Source: Bacteroides timonensis
GTDB lineage: Bacteria; Bacteroidota; Bacteroidia; Bacteroidales; Bacteroidaceae
Reading direction: 5' to 3'
DNA: 64,000 nucleotides
NCBI RefSeq assembly: GCF_000513195.1
Contig: NZ_CBVI010000024.1
Location: 1-64,000, forward strand
Shown here: in pieces, positions 665 through 33,223 of the stretch
Layout: each line of letters begins with the position of its first letter
Numbering within the stretch: the first letter of the stretch is position 1
Made by a program: the position numbers and the translations under genes
The notes under the pieces: model-generated
Seen by the model: the letters and a program-made list of their open reading frames with translations, nothing else
The model's database searches: none
What the model was told of the DNA's origin: nothing

Positions 665-2671
665 ATGAAACCATTTTATTATCTATGTGACTTTCCCGAA
701 CGTAAGAATGCAGGAAAGAATTTCGTAACAGAGTGCCCTAAATGCGGCAAAAAACATCTTTATATTTCCAAAACGACAGGAGCTTTTCACTGCTTCTCCA
801 GCGGTTGCGACTTCAAAGGGAAGCTCAAAGACTTCTGGGAAGAAAGGCCGAGCTATAATTCGTCATTTACCGGAACAGCCGGTGATAAATTTATGGGTAC
901 ACATTACCCTACCCACAATATCCGCCAGGAAAGAGAATCAGGAAACGGCAGTGGAAAAGCCACATCCGAAGTACCTATGATTCCCGAAGATTACAAAAAA
1001 TTACCTCCCGAAGTATTCTCCAAAATCAAACCGCTGACAGATGATCCCGAGACTAAGGACCAGAATCAACTCGCTGCCCGACGCTATCTTGCAGATCAAG
1101 GCATCTCACTGAAAACGGCTATTGAAGCCCATATCGGCTGTCTCATGCATCGCTGCTACGGCAAGGATGAAGACAACAAGAGCACCGGAACCATGTATCA
1201 TTGCATAGCCTACGTCAACTTTCTGAACGGACAGCCCATAAATGTCAAATATCGCTCGTGCGATCCCTCAACTATCAAGGCCACAGATGAAGGAGAAACA
1301 ACCGGCAGGGAAAAAGCTGCCGGATATACCAAATTCTGGAGCCAGGATTCACCAACCACACCTTGCCCACCTTACCACATCGACTGCATCAATCCCCTGA
1401 AGGTAGCCGAAGAAACCATCCTCCGACTCATCATCACCGAAGGTGAAAAAGATGTGCTTACACTCAAAGAAGCAGGCTATCATTACGTTATTAGCGTACC
1501 CAACGGAGCGGCAAGCGATCTCTCTAAAAGTTTCGAAGCCTTCGAACCCTGGATAGACCAAGTGAGGGACATCGTGATCTGCGGAGACATCGACCTACCG
1601 GGAAGAACCCTGATGAAGCATCTCACCGACTACTTCGGAGAGCGTTGCCTACTCACCACACTACCCGGCGACTGCAAGGACATTTCCGACGTACTCGCCA
1701 CATACGGCATCGAAGTCGTACACGAAATCATCGAATCCGCCCGACCGCAACACACAGCGGACATCGTCACCGTAAGCGAACGGGCAAACGGGATTTTGAA
1801 CGTGCTGCACGGAGAATACGATCACGGATATGATGTAGGTTACGGCCCCTTGACCGACCATGTATTCCACCCCACCGACCAAGGCGGTCTGATTATCGAG
1901 ACCGGAGTACCCAACAGCGGAAAGACCGATTTTCTGAACGACCTCACGTGCCGGCTCATGGCCAAGACCGGACGCTATGTATGTTACCTCTCTTTCGAAG
2001 TGCCCGACAAAGACAAGCATATCGCCCATCTCGTGCAGCTCATGCTGGGAAAAGTGAACACTGTAAATTATACCCAAGAACAGTTGAAACCTATTGTCAG
2101 TTTTCTGGATAGCCACATGGTGCACCTCGACTTGCATGAAGTATCCCCCACTCCCAACAATATCATCGCGAGAGCGGACATGGTGCGGCGCACCCTTCCA
2201 CTGAAATATCTCATTATCGATCCATACCTCTTCATGGAGGTGGAAACCAACCGGTACAACACCGAAACCCAAGCCATAAAAGCTATGCTGACGCAGATGC
2301 AGGCATGGGGCAGAACCAACAATATATGGGTCATCATCGTAGCCCATCCGCGCAAACTCACCAAACTCAACGGGAAGAACGAGCTGGAAGAGATTGACAT
2401 GTATACCATAGCAGGCAGTGCCAACTGGGCCAATCTGGCCGATTTCATATTTTCCATATCCCGCATCAACCGACAGGACAGCAACTATACCCGACTCGAC
2501 ATGCTGAAGGTGCGCGATCAGGACCTGTGCCAGACAGGAAGCGTCCTATATGTCCGACAAGCCTGCGGACGTTACGACGAACGGGAGTCCGAAGAGCAAG
2601 TAATAGCGGAAGCACAAGGCAAAGTCATGAGTAGGGATCATTCACCTTGGATCAGTCTCATCGAAAGTTGA
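665..2671 (+). CDS. Toprim primase / RecA-fold helicase (T7 gp4 or Twinkle type)
   Basis: A 668-residue protein with the order of a bifunctional primase-helicase. The N-terminal zinc ribbon has Cys24, Cys27, Cys43 and Cys48. A Toprim segment follows near residue 256 (LIITEGEKDVL) with a downstream CGDIDLPG acidic motif. The C-terminal RecA/DnaB-like ATPase has Walker A GVPNSGKT near 414 and Walker B LIIDPY near 516. The family primes and unwinds DNA at replication forks of phages and mobile elements. In Bacteroides it recurs beside DUF4248, HU-like, smalltalk and amidase genes close to capsule loci. It appears intact. Its substrate and any link to capsule biology are unknown. Confidence 0.8.
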   Translation: MKPFYYLCDFPERKNAGKNFVTECPKCGKKHLYISKTTGAFHCFSSGCDFKGKLKDFWEERPSYNSSFTGTAGDKFMGTHYPTHNIRQERESGNGSGKATSEVPMIPEDYKKLPPEVFSKIKPLTDDPETKDQNQLAARRYLADQGISLKTAIEAHIGCLMHRCYGKDEDNKSTGTMYHCIAYVNFLNGQPINVKYRSCDPSTIKATDEGETTGREKAAGYTKFWSQDSPTTPCPPYHIDCINPLKVAEETILRLIITEGEKDVLTLKEAGYHYVISVPNGAASDLSKSFEAFEPWIDQVRDIVICGDIDLPGRTLMKHLTDYFGERCLLTTLPGDCKDISDVLATYGIEVVHEIIESARPQHTADIVTVSERANGILNVLHGEYDHGYDVGYGPLTDHVFHPTDQGGLIIETGVPNSGKTDFLNDLTCRLMAKTGRYVCYLSFEVPDKDKHIAHLVQLMLGKVNTVNYTQEQLKPIVSFLDSHMVHLDLHEVSPTPNNIIARADMVRRTLPLKYLIIDPYLFMEVETNRYNTETQAIKAMLTQMQAWGRTNNIWVIIVAHPRKLTKLNGKNELEEIDMYTIAGSANWANLADFIFSISRINRQDSNYTRLDMLKVRDQDLCQTGSVLYVRQACGRYDERESEEQVIAEAQGKVMSRDHSPWISLIES

Positions 2672-2681
2672 AGGGAATAAC

Positions 2682-2759
2682 ACTTGCGGCTGCGTCGGGC
2701 TATGCTTGTGCAAGTGTATGCTTACACAGCCGCAAGCGTCAGGCTTCGCAGCCGCAAGT
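2682..2759. repeat. Palindromic intergenic repeat, copy 1 of a two-copy family
   Basis: ACTTGCGGCTGCGT at 2682-2695 is the reverse complement, with one mismatch, of TCGCAGCCGCAAGT at 2746-2759. A further related arm, ACACAGCCGCAAGC, lies at 2724-2737. The element fills the gap between the convergent primase and DUF4248 genes. A related copy lies at 58821-58898, also between convergent genes, so a terminator or REP-like role is plausible. Confidence 0.75.
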
Positions 2760-2803
2760 GTCAAACTTCACAAGTGCCACTTTCAAATCTTCCCTCTCAA
2801 GCC

Positions 2804-3061
2804 TTAAGGTCTCCCTATATACTCAAAAATCAGTTCCACCTGCTTGCTGGTAAAAATCTGTTGGGCGGAGCGGTAACCCGTATCCAGCAAAGCCTGATAC
2901 AGAAGCACGTTCCCGCGCAACCAGCGCGAAAGGCGGTTAAGAGCCGAACGCTCCCCGATTTCAGGCGCGTATGCACGCGCTAACTCACTTTTGGAATAAG
3001 GACGGACAGGCCATTCTTCTACGGGCACATCCGTATCATGATTACATGCGATTGTCTTCAT
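2804..3061 (-). CDS. DUF4248 family protein
   Basis: An 85-residue protein with the DUF4248 pattern: an RPYSKSELARAYAPE helix near residues 20-34, then RLSRWLRGN and a C-terminal VELIFEYIG. In the family the first half looks like a helix-turn-helix (SKSELARAY) and the second like a partner helix. DNA binding is inferred, not shown. It lies opposite to the flanking primase and HU-like genes, as is usual for this Bacteroides module. A near-consensus -7 element (TACCTTTA on the minus strand) lies about 40 nt upstream of the start. Confidence 0.7.
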   Translation of the reverse strand: MKTIACNHDTDVPVEEWPVRPYSKSELARAYAPEIGERSALNRLSRWLRGNVLLYQALLDTGYRSAQQIFTSKQVELIFEYIGRP

Positions 3062-3185
3062 CTTACGATTACTTTTAGAGTACTGTTTATGCTATAAAGG
3101 TACAAAAAAGTCATCGGATATCACCCATTCCGTAACAATTTTATCAGGTGTCAATGTCACTCATTTTCATAGGTTCGGGAGATTG

Positions 3186-3193
3186 TATCTTTG
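3186..3193 (+). promoter_or_regulatory. Putative -7 element of the HU-like gene
   Basis: TATCTTTG matches the Bacteroides -7 consensus TAnnTTTG. No clear -33 TTG sits 20 nt upstream. Transcription from here would give a leader of roughly 90 nt before the ATG at 3292. Confidence 0.5.
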
Positions 3194-3291
3194 TATTGTT
3201 CATCACGGAGGACGCAGCGTCTCACTGAGCCGATCCGAGCTTTTCCGTAAGAACTTAATTATTTAATTATTAATTCTTTAATTTATTAATC

Positions 3292-3831
3292 ATGGGATTG
3301 AATTACAGTATCGCAATGCTCAAGAACCCGCAAAACCAGGATGAGAGCGCCAAGGCGTATGCCAAGTCACAAATCACAGGGGAACTGTCCCTGAAAGAAC
3401 TGAGCCGCCGTGTAGCTGCGCAGACCACCGCCAGTCGTGCCGATGTCACCGCAGTTATCATCGCTACCGTAGAAAACATGATTGACGGCCTGCGTGCAGG
3501 CGAACAAGTAGACTTCGGAGATCTGGGAAAATTTCGTCTTCAAATTACCAGCCGGGGTGCAGAAACCGCGGAAAAATTTACGGCTACCAACATCACCGGA
3601 GTTAATATCCAGTTCATTCCGGGCGAAGATTTGAAAACCATATTCTCCGGTCTTGAGTTTTCACCCGTACCTACCCGTGCGGCTACACGTCTGCTGCTCA
3701 AAGCTCAAAAGGCGGGACAGACGACAGTGGACTTTTCAAAAACGCCCTCTTCCGGTGGAAATTCCGGCAGTAAACCGGATGACGGTGGTAACACCGGTGG
3801 CGGAGGACTGGATGAAAACCCGCTGGGATAG
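3292..3831 (+). CDS. HU-like DNA-binding protein with Gly-rich tail
   Basis: A 179-residue protein of the Bacteroides HU/IHF-like family. Residues 1-125 carry the HU-like fold, including the stretch VDFGDLGKFRLQ and the following beta strands. Residues from about 145 form a Gly/Ser-rich low-complexity tail ending GGGGLDENPLG. The same terminal motif occurs in the HU-like protein at 31323. The family binds and bends DNA. The gene starts the smalltalk/amidase transcript. The 116-nt gap downstream holds an imperfect hairpin (arms at 3841-3852 and 3879-3891), which could partly stop transcription. Confidence 0.8.
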   Translation: MGLNYSIAMLKNPQNQDESAKAYAKSQITGELSLKELSRRVAAQTTASRADVTAVIIATVENMIDGLRAGEQVDFGDLGKFRLQITSRGAETAEKFTATNITGVNIQFIPGEDLKTIFSGLEFSPVPTRAATRLLLKAQKAGQTTVDFSKTPSSGGNSGSKPDDGGNTGGGGLDENPLG

Positions 3832-3947
3832 AATTTAAAAGCGTAGCCTTCAGAAATTAATAATGAAAAAATTAACCATGAAAGGCTGCGCAAATTCTTA
3901 AACGTCAACTAATATTTCAATTTTTATCTTTTAAATTTAATAGGTTT

Positions 3948-4052
3948 ATGGAAAAGAAATCAAAATCAGTATGGGGCATTGTCCTCAAAGTTATCGTCAC
4001 GGTGGTCACTGCCTTGGCCGGTGTATTCGGTATAACCTCCTGCATGCACTGA
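3948..4052 (+). CDS. Smalltalk family microprotein
   Basis: A 34-residue reading frame that begins MEKKSKSVWG and ends GITSCMH. It is a basic N-terminus followed by one hydrophobic helix, the form of Bacteroides 'smalltalk' proteins found directly before the N-acetylmuramoyl-L-alanine amidase. The TGA shares its last base with the ATG of the amidase at 4052, implying translational coupling. The near-terminal Cys within ITSC could suit lipid attachment, but no lipobox fits well. The arrangement recalls a holin-like membrane peptide beside an endolysin; that comparison is inference. Confidence 0.7.
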   Translation: MEKKSKSVWGIVLKVIVTVVTALAGVFGITSCMH

Positions 4053-4465
4053 TGAGAACCATCACACTCATTATCATTCACTGCTCAGCCACGCCTCAGG
4101 GCGTGCGCCGAAGTTTTGACGACTGTCGGCGGGATCACATCCGCCACCGTGGCTTCAATGACATTGGCTATCACTTCTACGTGACACGCGACGGTGAGAT
4201 TCACCGTGGACGACCTTACGAACGCATTGGAGCACATTGCCGGAATCATAACCGCCATTCCTTAGGTATCTGCTACGAAGGTGGACTTACCGCTTCCGGA
4301 CAACCGGCTGATACACGCACCTTACATCAGAAAGCTTCGTTAGTAGCTTTACTGCGCGAACTGAAACGGGTATTTCCACGGGCATTGATAGTAGGTCATC
4401 ACGACCTCAACCCGATGAAAAACTGTCCTTGTTTTGATGCGGCAAAGGAATATAGGGAATTATAA
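4052..4465 (+). CDS. N-acetylmuramoyl-L-alanine amidase (amidase_2 / T7 lysozyme type)
   Basis: A 137-residue single-domain amidase. The zinc-site pattern of T7 lysozyme-like amidases is visible: His in LIIIHCSAT near residue 9, the GYHFYVTRDGEIHRGR strand, and His plus Cys in VGHHDLNPMKNCPC near the C-terminus. It is predicted to cut the bond between MurNAc and L-Ala in peptidoglycan. There is no signal peptide, so export would need help, perhaps from the coupled smalltalk peptide. The start at 4052 is chosen because it overlaps the smalltalk stop and the fold begins there; the in-frame ATG at 3971 lies inside smalltalk. Confidence 0.85.
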   Translation: MRTITLIIIHCSATPQGVRRSFDDCRRDHIRHRGFNDIGYHFYVTRDGEIHRGRPYERIGAHCRNHNRHSLGICYEGGLTASGQPADTRTLHQKASLVALLRELKRVFPRALIVGHHDLNPMKNCPCFDAAKEYREL

Positions 4466-4543: not shown

Positions 4544-6070
4544 TCATCTTCTAAATCTTCGTTTTACATATAACCAAACTTTTTGTTTGGTCAACATGTC
4601 AATCCCAATCCAATATATTGACAATATAATTATAATAACAGTTATAAAACCTATAAAAATGGAGTGTGGAATACTATCAACGCCTATTATATGATATAAA
4701 AAAACAGGTACAGGTAAAGCAGCCATAGTAACCAACAAACAGGGCTTAAAAACATTCCAGACATCTCTCCAATAATAATTTGCTATTTTCACTACTAATA
4801 TAGGCTTTACTATTAACCCCAATACGGCATAAGTCAATAAACTAGCCCATGAAAGAGCGACAGGAGAATATCCCGCTTTAAATAAGAAATAGATTATAGG
4901 AAAACTAATAAAACCTAAGGTTGGTGATATTAGAGCATTTTCCCTCAACCGTCCTTTAGCATACAAAGCTGTATAAAAAGAAGTGTCAAAAACTTGAAAC
5001 AGACTCTGAATAACTATAATCTGAAGAAATATAACCGTATAATCAGGCACAACATCCAGCCATATTTTTAATAAAGGATGCGCGAGAAGACAGACAGGAA
5101 AACAGATTATAAACATCATATAATAAGAATATTTGGTGGATGCCAACAATAGCCTTTTAGAACCCATCAAGTCGCCCACCGCCAGTTTCTTTACTATCTG
5201 CGGATTAGCTGCTGTACGAAAATTATTAACAAACTGACTAGCTGCCATATTTACTTGAATAGAAATAGATCGTGCCGCAACCACGGCAGGTTCAAAAAAC
5301 ATATTCAACAAAATCAGAATACCTTGACTATTAAGAGCTATTGAACTACTGGCAAATAAACTCCATCCCGAAAATCCCGCTATTTCTTTGAATATAGCCT
5401 TATCAAAAACAAAACGATAAACCGTTTCCTTAAAATGCCGACTACAATACAAACGATAGATACAAATGAGTCCTACCTGAACTATGAATAATAAAGTGGC
5501 ATACAATTTTAATTTATCATAACTGCCAATGGATAAAAGATAGACTATTCCTAGTTTTGCCGAAACTTCTATAATGCTCATATATGCAAAAACCGACATT
5601 TTCTCATGCGCAATAATACTTGCATTATAAGGAACTTGTGTCAATGTAAACACAGCAGTTAATATGGATATATGAAAAGTATAAACTGCAGCGTCCATCC
5701 GCTCAGCCGGTATCACCAATTTATTATAAAGAAACCATACTCCGAGCGTTTCTGCAACTATAACAACAAAGAGAGCAATTGCTATATGAATAGTCAATGT
5801 TGTAGAGAAAGTTCTCTTCAACTTTTCAAGATTGCCTGTTCCCAGTTCGTAAGTTAAAAAACGAGACGAACCTGTGCTGAGCGCACTATTAATAAAAGAC
5901 AAAAAGCCAACAATTCCACCTACGGACTGATAAATACCATAATTGTCAACTCCTAACGTTTGTAGTATCACACGTGAAGTATACAATGAAACTATCATTG
6001 TAAACATCATACGGAAATACAGGAATGCGGTATTCTTTGCGATGGTTCTATTGTTTGTTTTCTCCATCAT
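4544..6070 (-). CDS. Wzx-like oligosaccharide flippase (MOP superfamily)
   Basis: A 508-residue multi-pass membrane protein with 12-14 predicted helices and the N-terminal pattern NTAFLYFRMMFTMIVSLYTSRVILQTLG. This is typical of polysaccharide exporters of the MOP superfamily. The family moves lipid-linked oligosaccharide units across the inner membrane. It is the last gene of the leftward upxY operon, 4 nt after the acyltransferase stop region, and is followed by a strong terminator. Its presence implies a lipid-linked glycan substrate, although no glycosyltransferase is encoded in this operon. Confidence 0.85.
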   Translation of the reverse strand: MMEKTNNRTIAKNTAFLYFRMMFTMIVSLYTSRVILQTLGVDNYGIYQSVGGIVGFLSFINSALSTGSSRFLTYELGTGNLEKLKRTFSTTLTIHIAIALFVVIVAETLGVWFLYNKLVIPAERMDAAVYTFHISILTAVFTLTQVPYNASIIAHEKMSVFAYMSIIEVSAKLGIVYLLSIGSYDKLKLYATLLFIVQVGLICIYRLYCSRHFKETVYRFVFDKAIFKEIAGFSGWSLFASSSIALNSQGILILLNMFFEPAVVAARSISIQVNMAASQFVNNFRTAANPQIVKKLAVGDLMGSKRLLLASTKYSYYMMFIICFPVCLLAHPLLKIWLDVVPDYTVIFLQIIVIQSLFQVFDTSFYTALYAKGRLRENALISPTLGFISFPIIYFLFKAGYSPVALSWASLLTYAVLGLIVKPILVVKIANYYWRDVWNVFKPCLLVTMAALPVPVFLYHIIGVDSIPHSIFIGFITVIIIILSIYWIGIDMLTKQKVWLYVKRRFRR

Positions 6071-6074
6071 CTTA

Positions 6075-7067
6075 TTAAAGCCCTATCACTTGAGGAAATA
6101 TTTTCTTTAAAAGAAGCACTAAGATTAAATAAGAGACTAAGATTACACTCCCTCCTACTAGCATATATTCATAATAAGGAATATGGGGATTTAAATACCG
6201 CACAATTGGGTCGTATATCCAGTTCAATATTATTCTATGAGAGGCAAACAACGTCAAAGAATATTCTCCTATCAAAACAAGATATTTGGCAGACCCTATT
6301 TTACAGCCTATATACCAAAGAATATAACAAGCACATAATGAGTATGGCAGATTGAGCAAGAAACTTCCCGTCCGTTGATATAGCAAAACGAACGACAAAT
6401 CTTGTCTGTTAAAAAACAATATCAAAACAAAAACAACAATGGTTAATACCAGAATCTTAATATCAGGAAAATCTTTCTTTTCTTTAAGTAGTCTCTTAAA
6501 AAGATATCCAAAGTGATAGTAAACCAGTCCTAAAGCTATATTTCCATCAGAAAGAATCTGCATTCTATTATGAACCAAGCATGCAAACAGAAAACTTCCT
6601 AAGATTAAAACATGCTTGTAATATCCTTGCACATAGACATCTATAAAAAAATATATAATAGAAACGCTAAAAAGGCTAAAAAAGAACCATAATGGCGTAT
6701 TTGACGCCAAGGCCCCTGTAGAAACAAGAGAATAAAAAGGTGCTAAGAAATCTATTGTCCCATATAAAATATATCTGTTTGCATAGTAAACAATCAAGGA
6801 AACTGCAGACCAAAAAACATAAGGAAACAACAACTTTCTCACTTTATTATAGACGAAATCAGAAGCAGATCTTTTCGAAGAAAACAGAAAACCGCTGAAA
6901 AAATAAAATGACGTCATAAAAAAAGACATTATACTGAATAGAAGAGGCCTATTTCCTGATTCATAGGATATAAGTCCAAATTGCATAGACATGTGATAAA
7001 AAACCACATAGAGAATAAGTCCTCCTCTGATCAAATCTAAATATTGTATTCTATTGTTTTGCATCAT
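6075..7067 (-). CDS. Acyltransferase 3 (AT3) family membrane protein
   Basis: A 330-residue integral membrane protein with about ten hydrophobic segments. The N-terminal RIQYLDLIRGGLILYVVFYH carries the Arg and His typical of AT3 enzymes, and FFSGFLFS follows. AT3 proteins transfer acetyl or other acyl groups onto sugars of surface polysaccharides. Its start overlaps the stop of the upstream epimerase by 4 nt (ATGA), indicating coupled translation. With the carrier protein and hexapeptide acyltransferase of the same operon it makes the locus rich in acyl-transfer functions. The acyl group and acceptor are not known. Confidence 0.8.
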   Translation of the reverse strand: MMQNNRIQYLDLIRGGLILYVVFYHMSMQFGLISYESGNRPLLFSIMSFFMTSFYFFSGFLFSSKRSASDFVYNKVRKLLFPYVFWSAVSLIVYYANRYILYGTIDFLAPFYSLVSTGALASNTPLWFFFSLFSVSIIYFFIDVYVQGYYKHVLILGSFLFACLVHNRMQILSDGNIALGLVYYHFGYLFKRLLKEKKDFPDIKILVLTIVVFVLILFFNRQDLSFVLLYQRTGSFLLNLPYSLCACYILWYIGCKIGSAKYLVLIGEYSLTLFASHRIILNWIYDPIVRYLNPHIPYYEYMLVGGSVILVSYLILVLLLKKIFPQVIGL

Positions 7068-8233
7068 TTCCCCAATAATGTTCTTTTTACTTTTCTAATA
7101 ACTCTAAAACCAAACATCATTACCACAACATCCCAACGACCTCTATGTAAAGCAAAAATATATTTTCGTTTGTCCGAAGAATCAGCATCCCCGAGATAAT
7201 CAATAAAGTGCAGGTTTAACCCATCTGTATTAATTCTGTTTTTCTTACACCATTTCAGTATTATGCGATCTGTATCACCTTCAAAATCCCAATCTATTCC
7301 AAACTGATAATGATTGTCTCGATAAGCATTATAAGTCATCTCAATGCCTTTTCTCAATGAAATTGTGTGCCGAAACAAAGGAACAACAGCTTTTATCTTG
7401 TCGTTACTATTAAAACGATCAATGGAACGTCCTCCCAATATTTCACCAGCGCGGCTCGGAAGTTCTTTGGCATAGAAATCACTCGTTATATCTATTGTCT
7501 TTACTTTTTTTCCAGTAAATTCAGACAAAACATCAAGCACTTCATTAAAAGATGGAGTCTCATCACCACAAACATTAAAAGCTTCGTTATAGGCTTCATC
7601 TTTCCCTATTAATCCAACCACACCTACAGCAAAGTCTTCAACACGCATCATATTGCAACGATTTATTCCACCATTCCATCTTATGATAGGCTTACCGCTT
7701 AATATACGTGCAATCAATGTCCAGTGATAACCGTATTGAGGAGAAATACCATAAGGAATACGAGTGTCATCATACGTCACACATGGACGAATCACAGTAT
7801 AATTACAATTGGAATTAGCAGCCAATTTCATCAGAAGTTCTTCACTTGCCCACTTATTTACACTATATCTCCACATAGGACGGACTTTTGGAGAATTTTC
7901 ATTACACACAGTTGCTAACTCTGTATTATAGACGGCACATGAGGAAATAAAAAAATACTGTCTGGTATAATGCGAATAGAAATTAAAGCTTTCTGTTGTC
8001 TCTTTATCATTATAACAGAGAAAGTCCATTACTGCATCAAACTTTCGTTCCCCCAGCAAACCACGAATTCTATTAAAATCATTTTTATCGGATTTAATCA
8101 ACTCCACATTATCAGGAATAAGTTTTTTTCGATGCCCTCTATTTATCATGACCACCTGTATTCCCTGTTTTAAAGCTTCATTGGTAACAGCTGTACTAAG
8201 AACCCCTGTACCACCAATCATTAATACATTCAT
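7064..8233 (-). CDS. NAD-dependent epimerase/reductase (extended SDR)
   Basis: A 389-residue protein with an N-terminal Rossmann motif (VLMIGGTGVLSTAV, residues 3-16) and a YSVNK motif near residue 125 that supplies the Tyr-Lys of SDR enzymes. Residues up to about 320 match nucleotide-sugar epimerases or reductases. The C-terminal 70 residues are extra and basic, with no family recognised. It is expected to modify a nucleotide-linked sugar or a carrier-linked intermediate. It lies between the acyl carrier protein and the AT3 gene in the capsule-type operon, with a 13-nt gap to the carrier gene. Confidence 0.75.
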   Translation of the reverse strand: MNVLMIGGTGVLSTAVTNEALKQGIQVVMINRGHRKKLIPDNVELIKSDKNDFNRIRGLLGERKFDAVMDFLCYNDKETTESFNFYSHYTRQYFFISSCAVYNTELATVCNENSPKVRPMWRYSVNKWASEELLMKLAANSNCNYTVIRPCVTYDDTRIPYGISPQYGYHWTLIARILSGKPIIRWNGGINRCNMMRVEDFAVGVVGLIGKDEAYNEAFNVCGDETPSFNEVLDVLSEFTGKKVKTIDITSDFYAKELPSRAGEILGGRSIDRFNSNDKIKAVVPLFRHTISLRKGIEMTYNAYRDNHYQFGIDWDFEGDTDRIILKWCKKNRINTDGLNLHFIDYLGDADSSDKRKYIFALHRGRWDVVVMMFGFRVIRKVKRTLLGK

Positions 8234-8246
8234 AAAATGTTATCCA

Positions 8247-8480
8247 TTATTTGGAGAGATAGAGTCGATATAAGTCACTTATAGTCTCTGCCCCTTTCAT
8301 CTCAGATACCACAAAATTCTTATTATACTTATCAGCCATATCAGTCATAAAAGCTAAACCAGCAAGCGAACTCCACTCATCCATATAGCGGAACTCCGTA
8401 CTCATATCAATAGATTCATTAAGCCCATCAAAAAGGCTTTTGAAAAACTCTAAAAATTCTTGTTCGTTCATATTCCTCAT
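8247..8480 (-). CDS. Acyl carrier protein (capsule operon)
   Basis: A 77-residue acidic helical protein of ACP size. Its EWSSLAGL motif places the phosphopantetheine-accepting Ser at residue 38, preceding the recognition helix. The ATG at 8480 is chosen because a GGAAG ribosome site lies 8 nt upstream. A GTG at 8495 (which would overlap the upstream stop) and an ATG at 8471 are alternatives. Carrier proteins hold an acyl or aminoacyl group as a thioester. No ketosynthase or ligase is in this operon, but an adenylating enzyme is encoded in the divergent dlt-like operon 4 kb away. Confidence 0.75.
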   Translation of the reverse strand: MRNMNEQEFLEFFKSLFDGLNESIDMSTEFRYMDEWSSLAGLAFMTDMADKYNKNFVVSEMKGAETISDLYRLYLSK

Positions 8481-8482
8481 TT

Positions 8483-10285
8483 TTAATGCTTCCACACAAT
8501 ATCTGTATCAATAATCCGAGCCGGTGATCCGGTCACCAATACACGGGCAGGCAATGGAGCGATTACCACGGAATTGGAACCAACCACCGTACCGTCACCT
8601 ACTTTTACACCCGGCATGATTTTACATTCGGAACAAAGCCAGCAAAAATCACCAATTATAACAGGGTTAGTATCCTTGAAACCTTGTTGGGCAATAATAT
8701 GGCCACCATTAGTATCGCGGATAGAGACATCGCGGCCATAGAATGTATGGCTGCCAATATGTATCTTATCACCACAAATTAGCGTCAAGCCAATGTTTCC
8801 ACCACCGGAGGCACCACATACAAGCTCCGCATTATCAAACACTTCCACATCACAACCATAACCAAAACGGAAATCACCCTGAAATTCAACCTTAGAATTC
8901 TTGCCAAACAGGAAACGACTTTCCAGTTTAGATTTACGAAACCTTTTATTGCCCAATAGAATTCTCCCACCTACTGTTACTTTAGCAGTTTTATCAATCT
9001 CGAAGACACAATAGGGAGTTGGAAAAAGTAATTTACCCTTTTTCCAATCGGTCTTTATAGCCGGATGAAAAAAATTCAGGTGAAAGAACTGCCAAACCGC
9101 TTTAGGACGTAATTGAGTCATCGTCATAAAAGTGCGTGTACAAGAAACCAATGTCCGTATCTTATCATATTTTCTTGTTGATATCGGGAAATATTTATCT
9201 CCCAATTGGTCGAAACGCATACTTTCCAAATCCAAAAAGAATTGTTTCCTGTCATAATCGGGACAAACTGCCGGCTTTACTAAAGCAGGATTGAAAGGCT
9301 GTATATTTTCAATTTTCACTTCTCTTTTCCGTAAACGCTTGCTTACTTGTTCAAAGAAAATTTTCCCTTTTTCTGAATTAATAAGGACAGCTGAAGTGCC
9401 TGTATTATTATCCAAATCCTTAGCTGCTTTCTCCACCCCCCAAAAATCAGCTAAAGTGATGTCAGCCATACGTGGATAGCCCTTGAATTGACATGAATAA
9501 CAAGAAGGCCGATCTATCATGCCGCTATGATAGGCCCTGCTGTAAAGGTCTTTACCTCTCACACCATAGTATGACTTTCCATTGGCAAACGTAGATTTTT
9601 TGGTCAGACTACGCCAGCCCAACTCTTTATTCTTAGCCTTAAAATAAACAACCTTAGAGGCATTTATTTCTTCCAAATAATCAAAATATTTCCGGTGAGC
9701 TTTAGGTGATGCAATGCTCTTACATATAAAATCTACAATTATCAGATTCTCATAGTCTTTATCCAAATACCTGCGCAAGGCAGCCATTTGGCAAGGAGTT
9801 CCGCAAACTAATACCGGTTTTCCTGTTTTTACCGCTTTCTTGACTGCAGTATAGAAGCCCTCAGCATCGCTCTGCAAATATTTGGAACTACGGAGTCTTT
9901 TCAAATCCTCTTTGTTGTTTGAAATAAACTGGTGGGCAAAAAAATTAGTATCATAAACAGCTCCGCCAACATAACCGCCTTGTTTATATACACTTTCCGC
10001 CATTGCAGAAAAAGCTCCGCCGGATGTACTATCGAAGCGAATTTCCAAGTTCTTATGATAAGCTCCGTAACAAACCGGTGGATTATAATCATTGCGCTTC
10101 AATTCCTCAACGTGCAATATGGGACATACACGCTCGCATAACCCGCAATCAGTGCATTTATCCTTATCTACCTCCGGATACCAAAACCCTTCAATATCCG
10201 TTTTGAAAGTAATTGCATCATGAGCGCACACGTCGCCACAGGCGTTGCAACCGCAACACATTGCTTTATCTGAAATATCAATCAT
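8483..10285 (-). CDS. Ferredoxin / F420-hydrogenase-beta-like protein fused to hexapeptide acyltransferase
   Basis: A 600-residue two-part protein. Residues 10-60 hold two 4Fe-4S motifs (CCGCNACGDVC and CTDCGLCERVCP). They are followed by the coenzyme F420 hydrogenase/dehydrogenase beta-like domain to about residue 390. Residues from about 410 form a left-handed beta-helix with hexapeptide repeats ending VGDGTVVGSNSVV and GSPARI, as in maltose/galactoside O-acetyltransferases. In capsule loci the two halves usually come as separate genes, the first often beside pyruvyltransferases. The open frame is continuous, so the fusion appears real. Redox chemistry and O-acetylation by one polypeptide is an inference. 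Confidence 0.8.
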   Translation of the reverse strand: MIDISDKAMCCGCNACGDVCAHDAITFKTDIEGFWYPEVDKDKCTDCGLCERVCPILHVEELKRNDYNPPVCYGAYHKNLEIRFDSTSGGAFSAMAESVYKQGGYVGGAVYDTNFFAHQFISNNKEDLKRLRSSKYLQSDAEGFYTAVKKAVKTGKPVLVCGTPCQMAALRRYLDKDYENLIIVDFICKSIASPKAHRKYFDYLEEINASKVVYFKAKNKELGWRSLTKKSTFANGKSYYGVRGKDLYSRAYHSGMIDRPSCYSCQFKGYPRMADITLADFWGVEKAAKDLDNNTGTSAVLINSEKGKIFFEQVSKRLRKREVKIENIQPFNPALVKPAVCPDYDRKQFFLDLESMRFDQLGDKYFPISTRKYDKIRTLVSCTRTFMTMTQLRPKAVWQFFHLNFFHPAIKTDWKKGKLLFPTPYCVFEIDKTAKVTVGGRILLGNKRFRKSKLESRFLFGKNSKVEFQGDFRFGYGCDVEVFDNAELVCGASGGGNIGLTLICGDKIHIGSHTFYGRDVSIRDTNGGHIIAQQGFKDTNPVIIGDFCWLCSECKIMPGVKVGDGTVVGSNSVVIAPLPARVLVTGSPARIIDTDIVWKH

Positions 10286-10643: not shown

Positions 10644-11120
10644 TCACGCCTCAGCCTCTTCCCATGGATAAGGATTTTCTTCAATATTCTTCAGTTCCTC
10701 TATTGCTTCCTCCTGCTCAGCAGTCAGTCGGAAACTGCCCCAGCTATCAATAATAGCATGAGCCTCTTTAGCCAACTCCTCTGCATAAACCTCACCATAG
10801 CAATAAGTCAGCAGACGAACTTTCAACAATGAAGCAGGGATCAGTGGAAGAACGTTAAGAGCACGCTCCAGAACTTTCTGAATATATTCCTGTTTATGCC
10901 CATTATCATACATTGTGGCATTGAAGGCTACTAAAAGACCTAAACACAGCTCAGCTTCAGCTTCAGGAGTTGAGCCATGTTTTCCATACGAGTTTAGGGC
11001 TGATTCATAAACATCACGATTCAGACGGGTGAAACTATCAACATAAATCGGACTGCCATCCTGACCTAGAGTGAGAAGACTGTGAGCCAGGGAAAATAAG
11101 GATGAAACTTGATCACTCAT
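10644..11120 (-). CDS. upxZ: UpxZ family anti-antitermination protein
   Basis: A 158-residue all-helical protein with the UpxZ signature: an N-terminal LFSLAHSLLTLG helix, DGSPIYVDSFTRLNRDVY, then the CLGLLVAFNATMYDNG stretch. In Bacteroides, UpxZ proteins inhibit UpxY proteins of other capsule loci, so that one capsule operon dominates. It lies 43 nt downstream of upxY, the standard order at the head of a capsule operon. It appears full length. Confidence 0.88.
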   Translation of the reverse strand: MSDQVSSLFSLAHSLLTLGQDGSPIYVDSFTRLNRDVYESALNSYGKHGSTPEAEAELCLGLLVAFNATMYDNGHKQEYIQKVLERALNVLPLIPASLLKVRLLTYCYGEVYAEELAKEAHAIIDSWGSFRLTAEQEEAIEELKNIEENPYPWEEAEA

Positions 11121-11163: not shown

Positions 11164-11703
11164 TTAGTCAGTTATCGGTTCTACAAGCGAAGAGTGAATA
11201 AAAGTCGTTGCAACAGCCATGACACCTTCAATATTGACAACTACACGACGGTCGCGACGGATACGAACAAATTCTCCTACAGCACCCTCAAAAACACCGC
11301 CCATGACACGCACCTTCTGGCCTCTTACCAGTTGAAGTTCAGCGGGTTCTACATAAATAACCGATTCTTCGTAGGTACCAGCAACAAGAATGAAACTACG
11401 CATCTGATCGTCTGGAACGATAACAGGAAGATGATGCTCCCGATTCATTATATAGCGTATAGGGATGTTCATACCGGCTTTATCCTTCAATGTATCGATA
11501 CGCTTACGAGTAGAGCGAATGAAAACAAGGTTATGCACGGCAGGAACAAACTTACAAATGCGACGACCATCTTTCACGACATAATCGCGACGCATCGGAA
11601 TGAAATTCTCTATCTTCTCTTCATCCAGAAAAGCTTTCAGAGCCAGTTCACGGCCATATGTGACACGTACTGCGAACCAGTGGAGGCGAGGAGGGATGTT
11701 CAC
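11164..11703 (-). CDS. upxY: UpxY family transcription antiterminator (NusG-like)
   Basis: A 179-residue NusG paralogue. It has an NGN domain beginning HWFAVRVTYGRELAL and a C-terminal KOW segment (GQKVRVMGGVFEGAVGEFVRI). UpxY proteins act on the leader of their own capsule operon and let RNA polymerase read through it. The start is uncertain: the only accepted start codon at the open end is GTG at 11703. The in-frame sequence up to about 11739 has coding character (YSGVPKEYSD) but no ATG, GTG or TTG. About 195 nt separate the gene from the left repeat of the invertible promoter. Confidence 0.88.
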   Translation of the reverse strand: MNIPPRLHWFAVRVTYGRELALKAFLDEEKIENFIPMRRDYVVKDGRRICKFVPAVHNLVFIRSTRKRIDTLKDKAGMNIPIRYIMNREHHLPVIVPDDQMRSFILVAGTYEESVIYVEPAELQLVRGQKVRVMGGVFEGAVGEFVRIRRDRRVVVNIEGVMAVATTFIHSSLVEPITD

Positions 11704-11898
11704 GTCAGAATATTCTTTGGGGACACCGGAGTAGTGAAATACTTACCGATTATTTTATGTAATGCAGTTGTTTTCAACAACTTATTTAGCATTCATCTTA
11801 TTCCAAAGCGTTCCGTCATCTCGATCAAAAAGCAGTGAAATAGTTATGTAAAAAGGTTATTAACGAAGAGATAAAAGAAAACGAAGTGTCTTTTAATC

Positions 11899-12102
11899 GT
11901 TCGTTTAATGTGCGCCATTTTAAACGTAAAAAATGGATACCAAGAATTATAAAAATGAGAAGATATTAAATCCATTTAGATATAATATAGAATATTGATT
12001 ATCAACAATATAATGTTTGAAATAAAATCTATTAGAAATATTTTTATTAAACACCTTGTACATTCGAAAAATACCCATTATCTTTGCGCACATTAAACGA
12101 AC
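11899..12102. promoter_or_regulatory. Invertible promoter segment with 17-bp inverted repeats
   Basis: GTTCGTTTAATGTGCGC at 11899-11915 is repeated exactly in inverse orientation at 12086-12102. Between the repeats lie 170 bp of AT-rich DNA containing one clear promoter. This is the structure of Bacteroides invertible capsule promoters, which are flipped by a site-specific invertase, often encoded elsewhere. As assembled the promoter points away from upxY, the capsule OFF orientation. Inversion would aim it at upxY. Confidence 0.88.
12056..12086 (+). promoter_or_regulatory. Bacteroides promoter reading toward the dlt-like operon
   Basis: A -33 TTG lies at 12056-12058 and a -7 TATCTTTG at 12079-12086, separated by 20 nt, which fits the Bacteroides consensus. 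The last G of the -7 element is the first base of the right inverted repeat, so transcription leaves the segment immediately, towards 12421. Confidence 0.85.
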
Positions 12103-12420
12103 ATTTTTTGCACACCCCTTATTTCAGGACGATATATAACTATATATCAATGCATTATCATTCCTCTAAATACTTTTTAGAAATGTCTCTTTTCATACTT
12201 TCTATCTATAATAAAAAAGGTCAAAGCCATTCTATTATTCGTCTATAAATCAGAGAAATAGTCATTACATCAAAAGAGAGAAAGATTATCTCCTAATACC
12301 TTCCTTCTATATTTAACACACATTAAGCCCTCCTCAATAGGGAAAATATCAAATCCTCCTGTCTTTACTACACAGAAAACGAATTAGACATTTACTATAA
12401 ACTATAAAATCACGAACAGA
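12103..12420 (+). other. Long leader before the dlt-like operon
   Basis: This is 318 nt of AT-rich sequence without a credible gene. It holds a small AT palindrome (GATATATAACTATATATC near 12130-12150). It would form a leader of over 300 nt for the dlt-like operon if transcription starts at the invertible promoter. No terminator or known riboswitch was recognised. Confidence 0.5.
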
Positions 12421-13608
12421 ATGGAAAAGGATCAAAAAGATATGATCAGTGAGATCATAGAGGCTTTTGAGAAGTATGCAGGACATCAGGCATTTGTTAT
12501 TAACAACATCACCTATACCTATCGTCAACTGTCTGAAACTGTATATAAAATATCCGCTTTGATTAATAGCAGGGAAGATAAAATCATCGGCATTATAGCC
12601 GAAGATAAATTGGAGACTTATGCCTCCATACTGGCAGTATTAATCAGCGGGAAAACGTATGTCATTCTACACCCAGCCTATCCCAGACACAGGAATAGAA
12701 AGATTGCGGAACTCGCCGATATTCATTTAATTCTATATACAAAGGACATCCGTGTATTGAACCTGGATACCGAACACGTAGATTTTATATGCACTTCGGA
12801 GTTACAGGAAATAGTTCCGTCTTCTTCCGGCATACATCCGGAAAAGAATGAAAATGCTTATATCATTTTCACCTCCGGCAGTACGGGAGAGCCGAAAGGA
12901 GTTCCTATCTCCCGTAACAACCTAAACGCTTTCTATAACGCATACAGCCATCTGGACTGGCAGTTGGACGAGAATGACCGTATGCTGCAAATGTTCGAAC
13001 TAACCTTTGACGTTTCTATCGTTTCTTTCTTATTTCCCCTGGCAATAGGTGCATGCATATATACAGTCTCTCCGGAAGGCGTAAAGTATATCAATGTCAT
13101 TGAAACCCTGGAAAAATACAACCTCACATTTGCTGCCGTAGCCCCCTCCCTACTCCAGTTATTATTACCCTATTTCTCTGAGATACAACTTCCTGAACTC
13201 AAATACCTGATAGTTACCGCCGAAGCATCGGATGTTGAATTACTATCTGCCTTCAGAGCCTGTGCTCCCAACGCCTCTTTTGTGAACCTGTATGGTCCCA
13301 CAGAAGGAACAATTTATTGCACAGCCTACCGGATACCGACCACCTCATGCAAACATCATAACGGTATGATTGCTATAGGCAAGCCATTCGAAGGAGTAGA
13401 TGTTCTAATTATGGATAATAACGGTAGCCCCGTCGCCACAGGCGAAACCGGAAAACTCTGGATCAGTGGCAGACAAGTGATGAACGGCTATTGGAACGCT
13501 CCTGAAAAGACTAAAGAATGCCTCATCGAAGGGAAGGATTGTATGGAACATTTCCCACTGAACACCAGCAGCAAAACCGATAGAAAAAGAATACTGGAAC
13601 TAATATAA
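12421..13608 (+). CDS. DltA-like adenylating enzyme with internal deletion
   Basis: A 395-residue ANL-superfamily adenylation enzyme, related to D-alanine-carrier protein ligases and NRPS A domains. Core motifs are present: A3 FTSGSTGEPKG near 150, A4 FDVSIVSF, A5 NLYGPTEGT and A6 GETGKLWISGRQVMNGYWN. Directly after NAPEKTKECLIEG the sequence jumps to FPLNTSSKTDRKRI, the A10 end with its Lys. Motifs A7 (TGD) and A8 (hinge, GYRIELGEIE type) are missing, about 100 residues, so the enzyme is probably inactive or altered. It is expected to load an amino acid or acyl group on the carrier at 13621. Confidence 0.8.
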   Translation: MEKDQKDMISEIIEAFEKYAGHQAFVINNITYTYRQLSETVYKISALINSREDKIIGIIAEDKLETYASILAVLISGKTYVILHPAYPRHRNRKIAELADIHLILYTKDIRVLNLDTEHVDFICTSELQEIVPSSSGIHPEKNENAYIIFTSGSTGEPKGVPISRNNLNAFYNAYSHLDWQLDENDRMLQMFELTFDVSIVSFLFPLAIGACIYTVSPEGVKYINVIETLEKYNLTFAAVAPSLLQLLLPYFSEIQLPELKYLIVTAEASDVELLSAFRACAPNASFVNLYGPTEGTIYCTAYRIPTTSCKHHNGMIAIGKPFEGVDVLIMDNNGSPVATGETGKLWISGRQVMNGYWNAPEKTKECLIEGKDCMEHFPLNTSSKTDRKRILELI

Positions 13609-13620
13609 AACTAAACTAAC

Positions 13621-13863
13621 ATGAATACGCAAATGATTTTAAATGAACTGAGCCTGATTTTTCAGGAGATATTGAAGAGAGACAACATCGTTCTTACCAG
13701 TGAAACCACCGCCCAGGATGTGGAAGGTTGGAATTCACTGACCAATATGTTACTGATAAGCAGAATAGAGAAAGATTTCAATGTTCACTTCACCTTCAGA
13801 GACATTGTCCGATTCAAGAATGTAGGAGATATTTGCAATGCCATTCTCACCAAAACCAAATAA
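13621..13863 (+). CDS. DltC-like carrier protein
   Basis: An 80-residue helical protein with the carrier motif GWNSLTNM; the phosphopantetheine Ser is residue 39. It follows the ligase by 12 nt and precedes the MBOAT gene by 3 nt, so the order is ligase, carrier, MBOAT, SGNH-like. That gene set is shared with the dlt operon, where the carrier passes D-alanine to the membrane acyltransferase. Length and motif spacing are normal for the family. It differs clearly from the carrier at 8247, so it is not a recent duplicate. Confidence 0.82.
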   Translation: MNTQMILNELSLIFQEILKRDNIVLTSETTAQDVEGWNSLTNMLLISRIEKDFNVHFTFRDIVRFKNVGDICNAILTKTK

Positions 13864-13866
13864 GAC

Positions 13867-15152
13867 ATGTCATTCATATCTTTGAATTTTGTCACACTGT
13901 TTGTATGTACCTTTCTTTTGTACTACACACTTCCACCTAAATATAGAAAAGCTATACTCTTGTTGTCAAGCTGTGTTTTCATAGGCTATTACCACATAGC
14001 TTTCCTGATCATAGCCCTTCTCATTTCACTGGCAACTTTTTTTCTCGGTAAATGGGTGGGACAATCAAAACATGAGAAGGATGCGAAAAGAATCTATATT
14101 TCGGGCTTGTGTTTTCTAATTACAGGCTGGTTGGCATTCCGATATGCCAACCTCCTGCCAGGCGTACACTGGCTATTCCCCTTAGGCATCTCCTTTTATA
14201 CCTTTCAGGCCCTTTCGTACCTGACGGAAATCTATTGGAAAGAAGAAGAACCGGAAGAGAACCTTGCAGACTTCATGATATATATGCTCTTTTTCATGAA
14301 ATTCCTATCAGGACCTATAGAACGGGCAAGAGATATGCTTCCACAATTGAAATCGGGTAAACCGGTAGCATATCCATCCATTGTCTACGGAATGAAACTG
14401 ATCGTAGTGGGACTGATAAAGAAGTTGATCCTTGCCGATTATATTTCCCCTTATATAGATGGTATTTTCAACTCTATACATACGGCATCCGGTATCCAAT
14501 TACTCATGGCATGCCTTTTATATCCGGTAGAATTGTATGGTGACTTTTCCGGTTATACGGATATTGCACTTGGAGGTGCCTGTATGTTGGGATTCAAACT
14601 CAGCCCTAACTTCAACCGCCCATTCATAGCTCAAACCACTGCCGAATTCTGGAGAAGATGGCACATGTCTCTTTCATTTTGGGTTAGGGATTACTTATAT
14701 CTGCCCCTATCTTCGGGCATGCGCCGTTGGGGACAGTGGGGAGTATTCCTGAGTCTGAGCCTGACATTTGCAGGATTAGGTGCCTGGCATGGTGCAGGAT
14801 GTTTGCAACCCTGTCCATCCTCCGCACTTATCTGCTTTTCGCAGTTTCCTTGATTTTTTTCCGTTTAGAGTCGGTGAGCGATGCTCTCTATTACATCAGA
14901 AACATCTCGTTCAGTACTCATGCCAGCTGGAAAGAAGTAAGCATCGGAATTCCGGATCATAATTGTATTGTGGCCAGTAGTGCTCTTGTAGTGATTTTAG
15001 TTTACGAATATTTTATGTCGAAACGAGATCTTCTAGAAGCGTTGGAAAAACAACCCATGCTTGTCAGATGGGGCATTTATTATCTGCTGGCCATTATGTT
15101 CTTTACTTTGGGACAGTTCAATTCCGACAGTTTTATTTATTTGCAATTTTAA
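13867..15152 (+). pseudogene. MBOAT (DltB/AlgI-like) membrane acyltransferase, frameshifted by deletion
   Basis: The first frame gives a normal MBOAT start with many membrane helices, then RFWRRWHMSLSFWVRDYLYLPL-type motifs broken across membrane segments. It reaches the catalytic His in GAWHGAG (His308, codon 14788). Just after this, near 14800, the frame changes: MBOAT-like sequence resumes in another frame as ATLSILRTYLLFAVSLIFFR and continues to the stop at 15152. In intact MBOATs about 70 residues separate these blocks, so an out-of-frame deletion is likely. Read as it stands, translation ends at 14853 after 328 residues. Enzymes of this family pass an acyl group from a carrier to an extracytoplasmic acceptor. 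Confidence 0.8.
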
Positions 15153-15173: not shown

Positions 15174-16211
15174 ATGAAGAAAAACAGTGAGCGAAGTGCA
15201 GCTATGCGCTTCACGATGAAACTATTTATACTCCTGACGCCATTTATAACCTTACTAGTGGTGTATTTCCTCAATGATCCTTTTATGGTTTTAAGGCATT
15301 ATAACCGTTATGACGACTCACCCGTCATGTTGAATGAAGGCTATATCGGTTGGCAAATGTATATGAACAACCGGGATTCCATTGCATTTGATTCTTTTAT
15401 CATGGGAAATTCCTGCACCATGGCCTATCAATGTCATGAATGGGAAAAATATCTGGATGGTGGCAGGGCGGTACGCCTGTTCGAAAATGCAGAAAGCATA
15501 GCCGCCATCAGTAAGAAGTTGCAGGCTTTGGAAAGAAATGGTGCAGAAATAAAGAATCTGCTCCTGATTCTGGATAAAGAGTCATTGGGTAAAGACCAGC
15601 TCTCAAGCAACCATAACCATGTGTTGCCCCCGGCTATCTCAGGGATCAGCAACTTTAGTTTTCAGGAGAAATTCTGTCAGGCTTTCTTCTTCCCTAATTT
15701 CCTGTTTCCTTATCTCGATTATAAAATATTTCATCAATACCGTCCCTATATGCAAGGAGTGATAAACCCTTATGGCGCAATCAGAGATGCAGTGACAAAT
15801 GATGCAATCAATCCCAGAGAGAAGATGATCCGGGATGAAGGAGAGGCATATTGGGAAAATCGCAAAAAAGAATTTGTGAAAGCCAGAGACTGCAATTACA
15901 GAAATGGTGAATACCGGGAAGGTGAGCAATTCCTATGGGAAACACAGACCGGATTATTGAAGAAAATAGATCAAATCTGCCGGAAACATAACACCTCGGT
16001 TAAAATCATCATCAGTCCCGACTATAACCAGATCAGCATAAATCCGACAGATGTGGAAATATTAAAAGGCATTTTTGGCTATGAAAACGTATTTGATTTC
16101 AGTGGTATCAATGAATATACGAACGATATTCATAACTACTACGAAAAAGGACATTACAGACCGATACTCGGAGCACACTTATTACAAAAAGTATATGCAA
16201 ACCATAACTGA
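15174..16211 (+). CDS. SGNH/DltD-like membrane-anchored protein
   Basis: A 345-residue protein with one N-terminal membrane helix (residues 12-32) and an extracytoplasmic domain. FIMGNSCTMAY near residue 76 resembles the GDS block I of SGNH hydrolases, with Ser as candidate nucleophile. HYRPILGAHLL near the C-terminus resembles the closing catalytic His block. DltD and AlgJ/AlgX-type partners of MBOAT enzymes have this build. It is the fourth gene of the dlt-like operon, 21 nt after the MBOAT. Overall identity to DltD looks low, so the role in transferring or hydrolysing the acyl group is inferred from context. Confidence 0.65.
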   Translation: MKKNSERSAAMRFTMKLFILLTPFITLLVVYFLNDPFMVLRHYNRYDDSPVMLNEGYIGWQMYMNNRDSIAFDSFIMGNSCTMAYQCHEWEKYLDGGRAVRLFENAESIAAISKKLQALERNGAEIKNLLLILDKESLGKDQLSSNHNHVLPPAISGISNFSFQEKFCQAFFFPNFLFPYLDYKIFHQYRPYMQGVINPYGAIRDAVTNDAINPREKMIRDEGEAYWENRKKEFVKARDCNYRNGEYREGEQFLWETQTGLLKKIDQICRKHNTSVKIIISPDYNQISINPTDVEILKGIFGYENVFDFSGINEYTNDIHNYYEKGHYRPILGAHLLQKVYANHN

Positions 16212-32296: not shown

Positions 32297-33223
32297 TTAT
32301 TTGCCCAAAGACTTTAGCATTTTATTAATGCACTTTTTCTTCTGTTCCATATTGGGATGTACATAGAGGTTTAGAGTTGTGCTGATATTAGAATGCCCCA
32401 ATATTACACTAACTGTTTTATAGTCGCAATTGCTCTCAATGCACCGAGTAGCAAAAGAATGGCGCAACCCATGAAATTTCAGTTGTGGCATTTTCAGTTG
32501 CTCCATAAGTTTCTTATAGTAGTTACGATAGGTACGTGGCTCCGTTGGCTCATTCTCATTCGTCAGCACATAGAAATCATCATTGACCACCTTCTTTAGT
32601 GGTTTAACGATAGATAGTAATTCCTTACTCATGGGAATCTCACGAAATGAGTTTTGGGTCTTGGGCGTGTTGATGACAAGTTCTGTATGTTTTGTTTCCC
32701 CTTCTATCACATAGATACGCTCGATAGTTCGCTGAACTGTGACTGTCCCTGTGTTTACGTCTATATCAGACCATTTTAAAGCGCATATTTCACCTATTCG
32801 CAAACCTGTGCTTAGACATACATAAATACCCAAATTTCTAAAAGTGAAGTTATCATGAATAAAATCTAATATCTTTTTATGGTTTTGAACGGTCAATACT
32901 TCAATCTCCTTGTTTGATTGCACCGTTGGATATTTTATATCCCACTCATAATAATTCATCCATTCATTTTTTACCCCAAACTTCATCACCATTTTTAGTA
33001 CAATTAAAATGTCCTTAATGGATTTGGCACTTAGTCCGGTATCCAACTTTTCCAAGACGAATGCCTGAACATGTTTTTCACTCAGCTCACAACTTTCACC
33101 AAAGGAAGGTAAAATGTGATTCTCCAGAATCAACATATATGTTGCAAATGTTGATTGCTTTACATACGGTCGCTTTTCAACTTTCCAAGCATCCGCAATT
33201 TTTCTAATTGTTTTATTTGTCAT
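32297..33223 (-). CDS. Tyrosine recombinase (hsdS invertase)
   Basis: A 308-residue tyrosine recombinase with an N-terminal SAM-like core-binding domain (residues 1-105). The catalytic domain shows Arg in GLRIGEICALKW, HGLRHSFATR (His-x-x-Arg), LGHSNISTTLNLYVH with the final His, and the Tyr nucleophile. It lies 50 bp from the 40-bp repeat of the hsdS cassettes. In Bacteroides such enzymes invert type I specificity genes, so it is the likely catalyst here; that assignment is inferred from position. It is intact and reads away from the cassettes. Confidence 0.88.
   Translation of the reverse strand: MTNKTIRKIADAWKVEKRPYVKQSTFATYMLILENHILPSFGESCELSEKHVQAFVLEKLDTGLSAKSIKDILIVLKMVMKFGVKNEWMNYYEWDIKYPTVQSNKEIEVLTVQNHKKILDFIHDNFTFRNLGIYVCLSTGLRIGEICALKWSDIDVNTGTVTVQRTIERIYVIEGETKHTELVINTPKTQNSFREIPMSKELLSIVKPLKKVVNDDFYVLTNENEPTEPRTYRNYYKKLMEQLKMPQLKFHGLRHSFATRCIESNCDYKTVSVILGHSNISTTLNLYVHPNMEQKKKCINKMLKSLGK

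Follow-up and report, generated by a model that had tools for sequence, protein, structure and literature searches.

We analysed 64,000 nt of Bacteroides timonensis DNA (the window) and found what is very probably a phase-variable promoter for capsule genes, belonging to the Mpi/GTTCGTTTAA class, flipped by a serine invertase acting in trans and lying beside an older, decaying dlt-like operon. The switch itself is one more capsule switch of this class, a type already shown to work in B. intestinalis. Comparative evidence argues against the OFF orientation driving a second functional operon, and the dlt-like genes probably stand next to the switch by accident.

Architecture of the proposed invertible promoter

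The switch and the capsule genes to its left comprise the following features:

4544..10285, minus strand: FrhB/hexapeptide protein, epimerase, acyltransferase and MatE-like protein, capsule-type (Pfam)
10644..11120, minus strand: upxZ (PF06603, E 2.7e-37)
11164..11703, minus strand: upxY, the gene that opens the capsule operon, for a NusG-family antiterminator (Pfam)
11899..12102, strand not applicable: invertible segment in OFF orientation, 204 nt with arms
11899..11915, plus strand: left arm of the inverted repeat, proximal to upxY (17/17 exact match)
12056..12058, plus strand: promoter -33 element, TTG
12079..12086, plus strand: promoter -7 element, TATCTTTG
12086..12102, minus strand: right arm of the inverted repeat (17/17 exact match)

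The two arms are identical over all 17 positions and separated by 170 nt, exactly as an earlier note on this DNA had placed them. This is the single case of a perfect 17-mer inverted repeat with a gap of 100–300 nt in the 64 kb; even a perfect repeat of 14 nt with such a gap was present in no more than 6 of 100 first-order random sequences. Inverted GTTCGTTTAA cores are present 184 nt apart, the spacing in this class being about 183–186 bp. The segment contains one Bacteroides-type promoter (TTG-N20-TATCTTTG), found exclusively on the plus strand and sitting at one end adjoining an arm, in agreement with the earlier description of a single consensus promoter with TTG at 12056 and a spacing of 20. 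It is directed rightward to 12421, away from upxY, and the assembled orientation is therefore capsule OFF. The upxY/upxZ capsule operon flanks the switch on one side; its MatE-like protein scores slightly under the Pfam cut-off. At its far end, at 665–4465, the capsule island has Toprim/DnaB-like, HU-like and amidase genes; the Toprim/DnaB-like and amidase genes have relatives in the islands of four other genomes (G084, G064, G135 and G176).

Related switches and evidence for inversion

When up to three mismatches are allowed, 23 copies of the arm motif are found in the B. timonensis genome, compared to 13 for a backwards-pattern control; 16 of the 23 make eight inverted pairs with 170–173 nt between the arms. 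B. timonensis has seven matches to the exact pattern GTTCGTTTAATG-N165..195-CATTAAACGAAC, and across the genus such exact repeat pairs were detected in 16 of 158 genomes, 48 pairs overall; the reversed control matched nowhere. We compared 39 switch loci (8 from B. timonensis and 31 others, leaving out 9 of the 48 exact pairs and one locus without a upx gene in reach), and the orientation was OFF at 33, ON at 5 and without a call at 1. Of the eight B. timonensis switches the one on contig C125 is ON; the other seven are OFF. All six switches found in G084 are OFF. At one locus (L092:9859-10065) both arms carry an identical change, GTTCGATTAATG / CATTAATCGAAC, as if they were co-evolving or converted.

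The C125 switch has inverted relative to its ortholog in G084: the two flanks align in the same orientation with 97% and 99% identity, while the segment reaches 99% identity when inverted and 58% otherwise.

Switches of this kind have been described in B. intestinalis. According to the available text of PMC8375218, reads show both orientations of PVR7, 8, 9, 11 and 12, each with a capsule operon downstream, transcription at the capsule loci starts within the proximal repeat, and in the wild type one capsule promoter is mainly ON and four are mainly OFF. Those promoters share the 10-bp core GTTCGTTTAA with the window switch, the cores are 183–186 bp apart there and 184 nt here, and Mpi homologs are present in both; we found no essential difference, and the available text does not discuss OFF-side genes (PMC8375218). 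The same repeat is cited in a later paper (PMC12118408, available text). The Mpi system of B. fragilis is alike in its trans-acting serine invertase, several up(a-h)Y/Z capsule loci and TAnnTTTG promoters (PMC4747536, PMC3090145, available text), but its repeat, quoted in PMC8375218 as ARACGTTCGTN, overlaps with ours only partially. Invertible promoters before capsule operons are also known from B. thetaiotaomicron and B. xylanisolvens; they differ in having other repeats and adjoining integrase or invertase genes (PMC12118408, available text).

A candidate invertase

The search for an Mpi-like invertase, suggested in the earlier note, was successful. Among seven serine recombinase matches in the B. 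timonensis genome, one is a candidate Mpi-like serine invertase of 196 aa (G000:C130:17056-17643). Of 158 genomes in the genus, 27 have an ortholog with at least 64% identity. These 27 comprise 15 of the 16 genomes in which exact repeat pairs occur (the one left over, G128, is 60% complete) and 12 genomes in which a C130-type invertase is present without such a pair. The link between invertase and repeats (Fisher p 7e-13, uncorrected for relatedness) is a correlation across the genus. Primer sites for B. fragilis mpi (PMC10939037, available text) match the C130 gene at 19/24 and 14/21 positions. On four other serine recombinases of the genome, with two longer ones left out, they match at most 14 and 13 positions, so that the reverse primer scarcely discriminates among recombinases (14/21 versus at most 13). 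With the eight repeat pairs, the sister inversion, this invertase and the core common with B. intestinalis, the proposal of an invertible capsule promoter is well supported.

Another invertase, encoded on C58 (L084), was considered as the switch enzyme and rejected: homologs with at least 75% identity occur in just 5 of the 16 repeat-bearing genomes (Fisher p 0.012), and in 7 of the 16 at E <= 1e-40. The identity cut-offs for the two invertases (75% for C58, 64% for C130) were placed at the gaps of each hit list. Phage_integrase matches, i.e. tyrosine recombinases, number 36 in the genome, including one in the window at 32297-33223, which is XerC/XerD-like, scores under the family cut-offs, lies 20 kb from the switch and is probably housekeeping.

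The dlt-like operon on the OFF side

To the right of the switch we annotated:

12103..12304, plus strand: flank on the OFF side; neither a consensus Bacteroides promoter nor a terminator-like site found
12305..12420, plus strand: native leader of the dlt-like operon, mostly conserved in B. oleiciplenus (alignment)
12421..13608, plus strand: adenylating enzyme, 395 aa, 101 aa missing compared to 496-aa intact relatives (AMP-binding Pfam, alignment)
13621..13863, plus strand: carrier protein, open frame (PP-binding Pfam)
13867..14853, plus strand: front part of the MBOAT gene, broken by a 103-nt deletion (Pfam, alignment)
14727..15152, plus strand: ORF encoding the rest of MBOAT, in a different frame from the front part
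15174..16211, plus strand: SGNH-like protein with N-terminal helix, open frame (predicted model)

Gene order and geometry confirm that the OFF promoter is aimed at divergent genes for an adenylating enzyme, a carrier, an MBOAT and an SGNH-like protein, as had been noticed before. The operon itself appears to be a decaying remnant; two of its four genes are broken, a damage that the earlier note does not mention. Compared to the 496-aa enzymes of G064 and G135 the adenylating enzyme has lost 101 residues in frame, a gap that we take to comprise the hinge and the following core motifs, and a loss of 103 nt has broken the reading frame of the MBOAT gene. Both deletions are present in G084 with junctions identical to those in the window, together with further deletions, and are therefore not assembly errors of the B. 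timonensis genome. No second copy of the adenylating enzyme was found in the B. timonensis genome at E <= 1e-30. G084 has two other full-length relatives of the enzyme (55–56% identity) away from the switch (G084:C1:3749370-3750848 and 3892435-3893910). Pairwise dN/dS of the operon genes is 0.01–0.25 where defined, which means that the decay is recent or partial or that the remaining parts are under some constraint; the remaining genes may still do something.

In its order of adenylating enzyme, carrier, MBOAT and SGNH-like gene the operon is the same as the DltABCD D-alanylation operon, and DltA and DltB models rank among the best named matches of the window genes. The earlier label "dlt-like" holds to this extent, but the window genes score under the NCBIfam cut-offs (DltA 191/476 bits, DltB 135/375 bits), and the complete adenylating enzyme and MBOAT of a DltABCD operon are not present in the window. 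The intact operon of G064 (L120) is also under these cut-offs (282/476 and 161/375 bits) and its enzyme exceeds the cut-off for a general amino acid adenylation domain (327 versus 317.4), hence "dlt-like" denotes likeness and not membership. Similarly, the SGNH-like character claimed for the fourth gene is backed by the best fold matches of its model (pLDDT 89.7), which are SGNH-type esterases, but none of these reaches E <= 0.001 and the gene has no Pfam match. When the SGNH-like alignment was searched against PDB sequences, nothing scored better than E 0.43.

The adenylating enzyme gene begins 319 nt past the repeat. Between 12103 and 12440 no consensus Bacteroides promoter was detected at 8/9 positions (0.13 expected from letter shuffles), there is no terminator-like site in 11600–12600, and the OFF-side gap shows no unusual RNA structure (fold z -0.01). 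The operon leader of about 110 nt is conserved in B. oleiciplenus and retained in the window, where 12305–12440 is 99.3% identical to L120:11425-11560. A leader that is both kept and conserved suggests that the operon has control of its own, though no consensus promoter was found in it.

Switch and operon in related genomes

In G064 and G135 an intact operon lies beside the switch, with an AbiD-like gene and a terminator-like hairpin between them. The AbiD-like protein has 294 aa (Abi_2 3.7e-43, PADLOC AbiD); its genes (L120:10332-11216 in G064, L122:10329-11213 in G135) start 292–293 nt from the repeat and point in the direction of the OFF promoter. Between the AbiD-like gene and the operon of G064 we found a perfect promoter at L120:11262 and the hairpin at 11331-11357, and both are also present in G135 according to the alignment. 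The promoter at 11262 could be the operon's own, but the hairpin intervenes, and we did not rely on it. The window has neither the AbiD-like gene nor the perfect promoter and hairpin of L120, so that OFF transcripts may run into the operon.

Operon and switch are separable: in other species the two occur apart. At the G176 locus the switch has no operon and GH25 and PFK genes adjoin it; the sole match to the enzyme in this genome is distant (29% identity). The operon of B. oleiciplenus has GH25 and PFK as its right-hand neighbours, as in the switch-bearing relatives, and no repeat core was found in its 21.5 kb locus. It starts 168 nt after a methyltransferase gene, presumably PrmA-like. In G092 (C4) the orthologous switch is about 314 kb away from the operon. 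Across the capsule island, the distance from the PrmA-like gene to the switch is 24 kb in G084, 26 kb in G064 and 34 kb in G135; in B. timonensis the gene is on another contig. Among the 17 named operon loci (L158-L174, the last partial, of 20 matches listed) only L158 from B. cellulosilyticus has an adjoining upxY and repeat pair; the window's own record is absent from these 17.

Genes facing the OFF orientation at other loci

At 4 of the 39 loci (window, G084, G064, G135) the OFF side carries the adenylating enzyme, and the other 35 switches do not face such an operon. The commonest OFF-side set combines a small ORF with genes for WYL_2 and Lin1244-type proteins. ORF clustering detected WYL_2 homologs at 17 of the 39 loci and tblastn at two more, and at 15 of the 17 the gene starts 754–774 nt from the repeat. 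At L089:8225-9910 and similar loci WYL_2 is directly preceded by a promoter-like site and by a leader that looks repeat-rich by eye. In an alignment of ten loci, TANNTTTG-like sites, some with one mismatch, are located about 122 and 615 nt past the repeat; at five B. timonensis loci scanned, one or both places show 8 or 9 of the 9 consensus positions (0.18–0.54 expected per locus from letter shuffles). The WYL_2/Lin1244 set therefore seems to have promoters of its own. VapE-type genes occupy the OFF side of other loci. We also considered the orientation of OFF-side genes as proof of two-way switching and dismissed it: the loci repeat a small number of gene sets, and the nearest long ORFs face the switch at L123, L137, L140 and L144.

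Discussion

Our preferred explanation runs as follows. A trans-acting serine invertase, most likely that of C130, would recombine the two arms; in one orientation the promoter would drive upxY, upxZ and the capsule genes leftward, and in the orientation assembled in the window the capsule would be OFF. The dlt-like operon probably predates the capsule island: the synteny is explained most simply if the island inserted between the PrmA-like gene and the leader of the operon, although the direction of this event is our inference. Transcripts starting in the OFF state may enter the operon remnant, which would no longer yield a working aminoacylation pathway.

The earlier note proposed a two-way switch, in which one flip could trade capsule-type expression for surface aminoacylation by way of the dlt-like operon. 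The invertible promoter is indeed the sole consensus Bacteroides promoter found upstream of 12421, no terminator-like site separates it from the nearby enzyme gene, and the operon genes have low dN/dS. However, the enzyme lacks 101 aa, the MBOAT frame is broken and a second enzyme copy was not found; in G064 and G135, where the operon is intact, the AbiD-like gene, the hairpin and another consensus promoter stand between switch and operon; and operon and switch are separable, with the conserved leader kept. A functional capsule-for-aminoacylation exchange in B. timonensis is thus unlikely on genomic grounds, and we regard the two-way reading as very improbable. That the window repeat is a fixed relic which has lost inversion is very improbable as well: the window switch and each of the five orthologs compared have the OFF orientation, the inverted state not being seen among them, but OFF is common in the family anyway (33/39), the arms are perfect and conserved, and the sister switch on C125 has inverted. 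An incidental effect, in which transcription from the OFF promoter covers the operon remnant but matters little or not at all, is compatible with the preferred explanation and has in our view an even chance of being true. OFF-state transcription into the remnant is plausible from the orientation of the promoter, the gap free of terminator-like sites and unusual structure, and the fact that transcription in B. intestinalis starts within the proximal repeat (PMC8375218, available text); against it, the orientation of IVp-II in B. fragilis, a different switch, is described in the available text of PMC4747536 as without influence on upstream genes.

Where relatives keep the intact arrangement, the AbiD-like gene might instead be the one driven by the OFF promoter, and capsule would then alternate with phage defence. 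The distance and direction of this gene at two of the five orthologous loci compared would fit, but it has a promoter-like site of its own (L120:10249, 8/9 positions), no match was found in the B. timonensis and G084 genomes at E <= 1e-10, and it is absent from the G176 and G092 loci; we consider this improbable. The same low probability applies to a more general idea, namely that switches of this family are two-way throughout, with the OFF promoter serving a cargo slot of varying genes and coupling loss of the capsule to, for example, phage defence. The slot would hold the AbiD-like gene and the aminoacylation operon, the WYL_2 and Lin1244 genes, or VapE-type genes, and positive evidence for the idea is confined to the geometry. 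The available text of the open-licence literature (PMC8375218, PMC8748976, PMC4747536, PMC3090145) describes no OFF-side partner operon in Bacteroides, which is weak evidence of absence.

With this probable phase-variable capsule promoter beside a decaying operon, eight Mpi-class capsule switches are well resolved within one genome. The case also illustrates that a gene behind an invertible promoter is not to be equated with its target until intactness, own control and linkage in relatives have been checked. If the general two-way reading were true, gut Bacteroides could couple loss of the capsule to phage defence.
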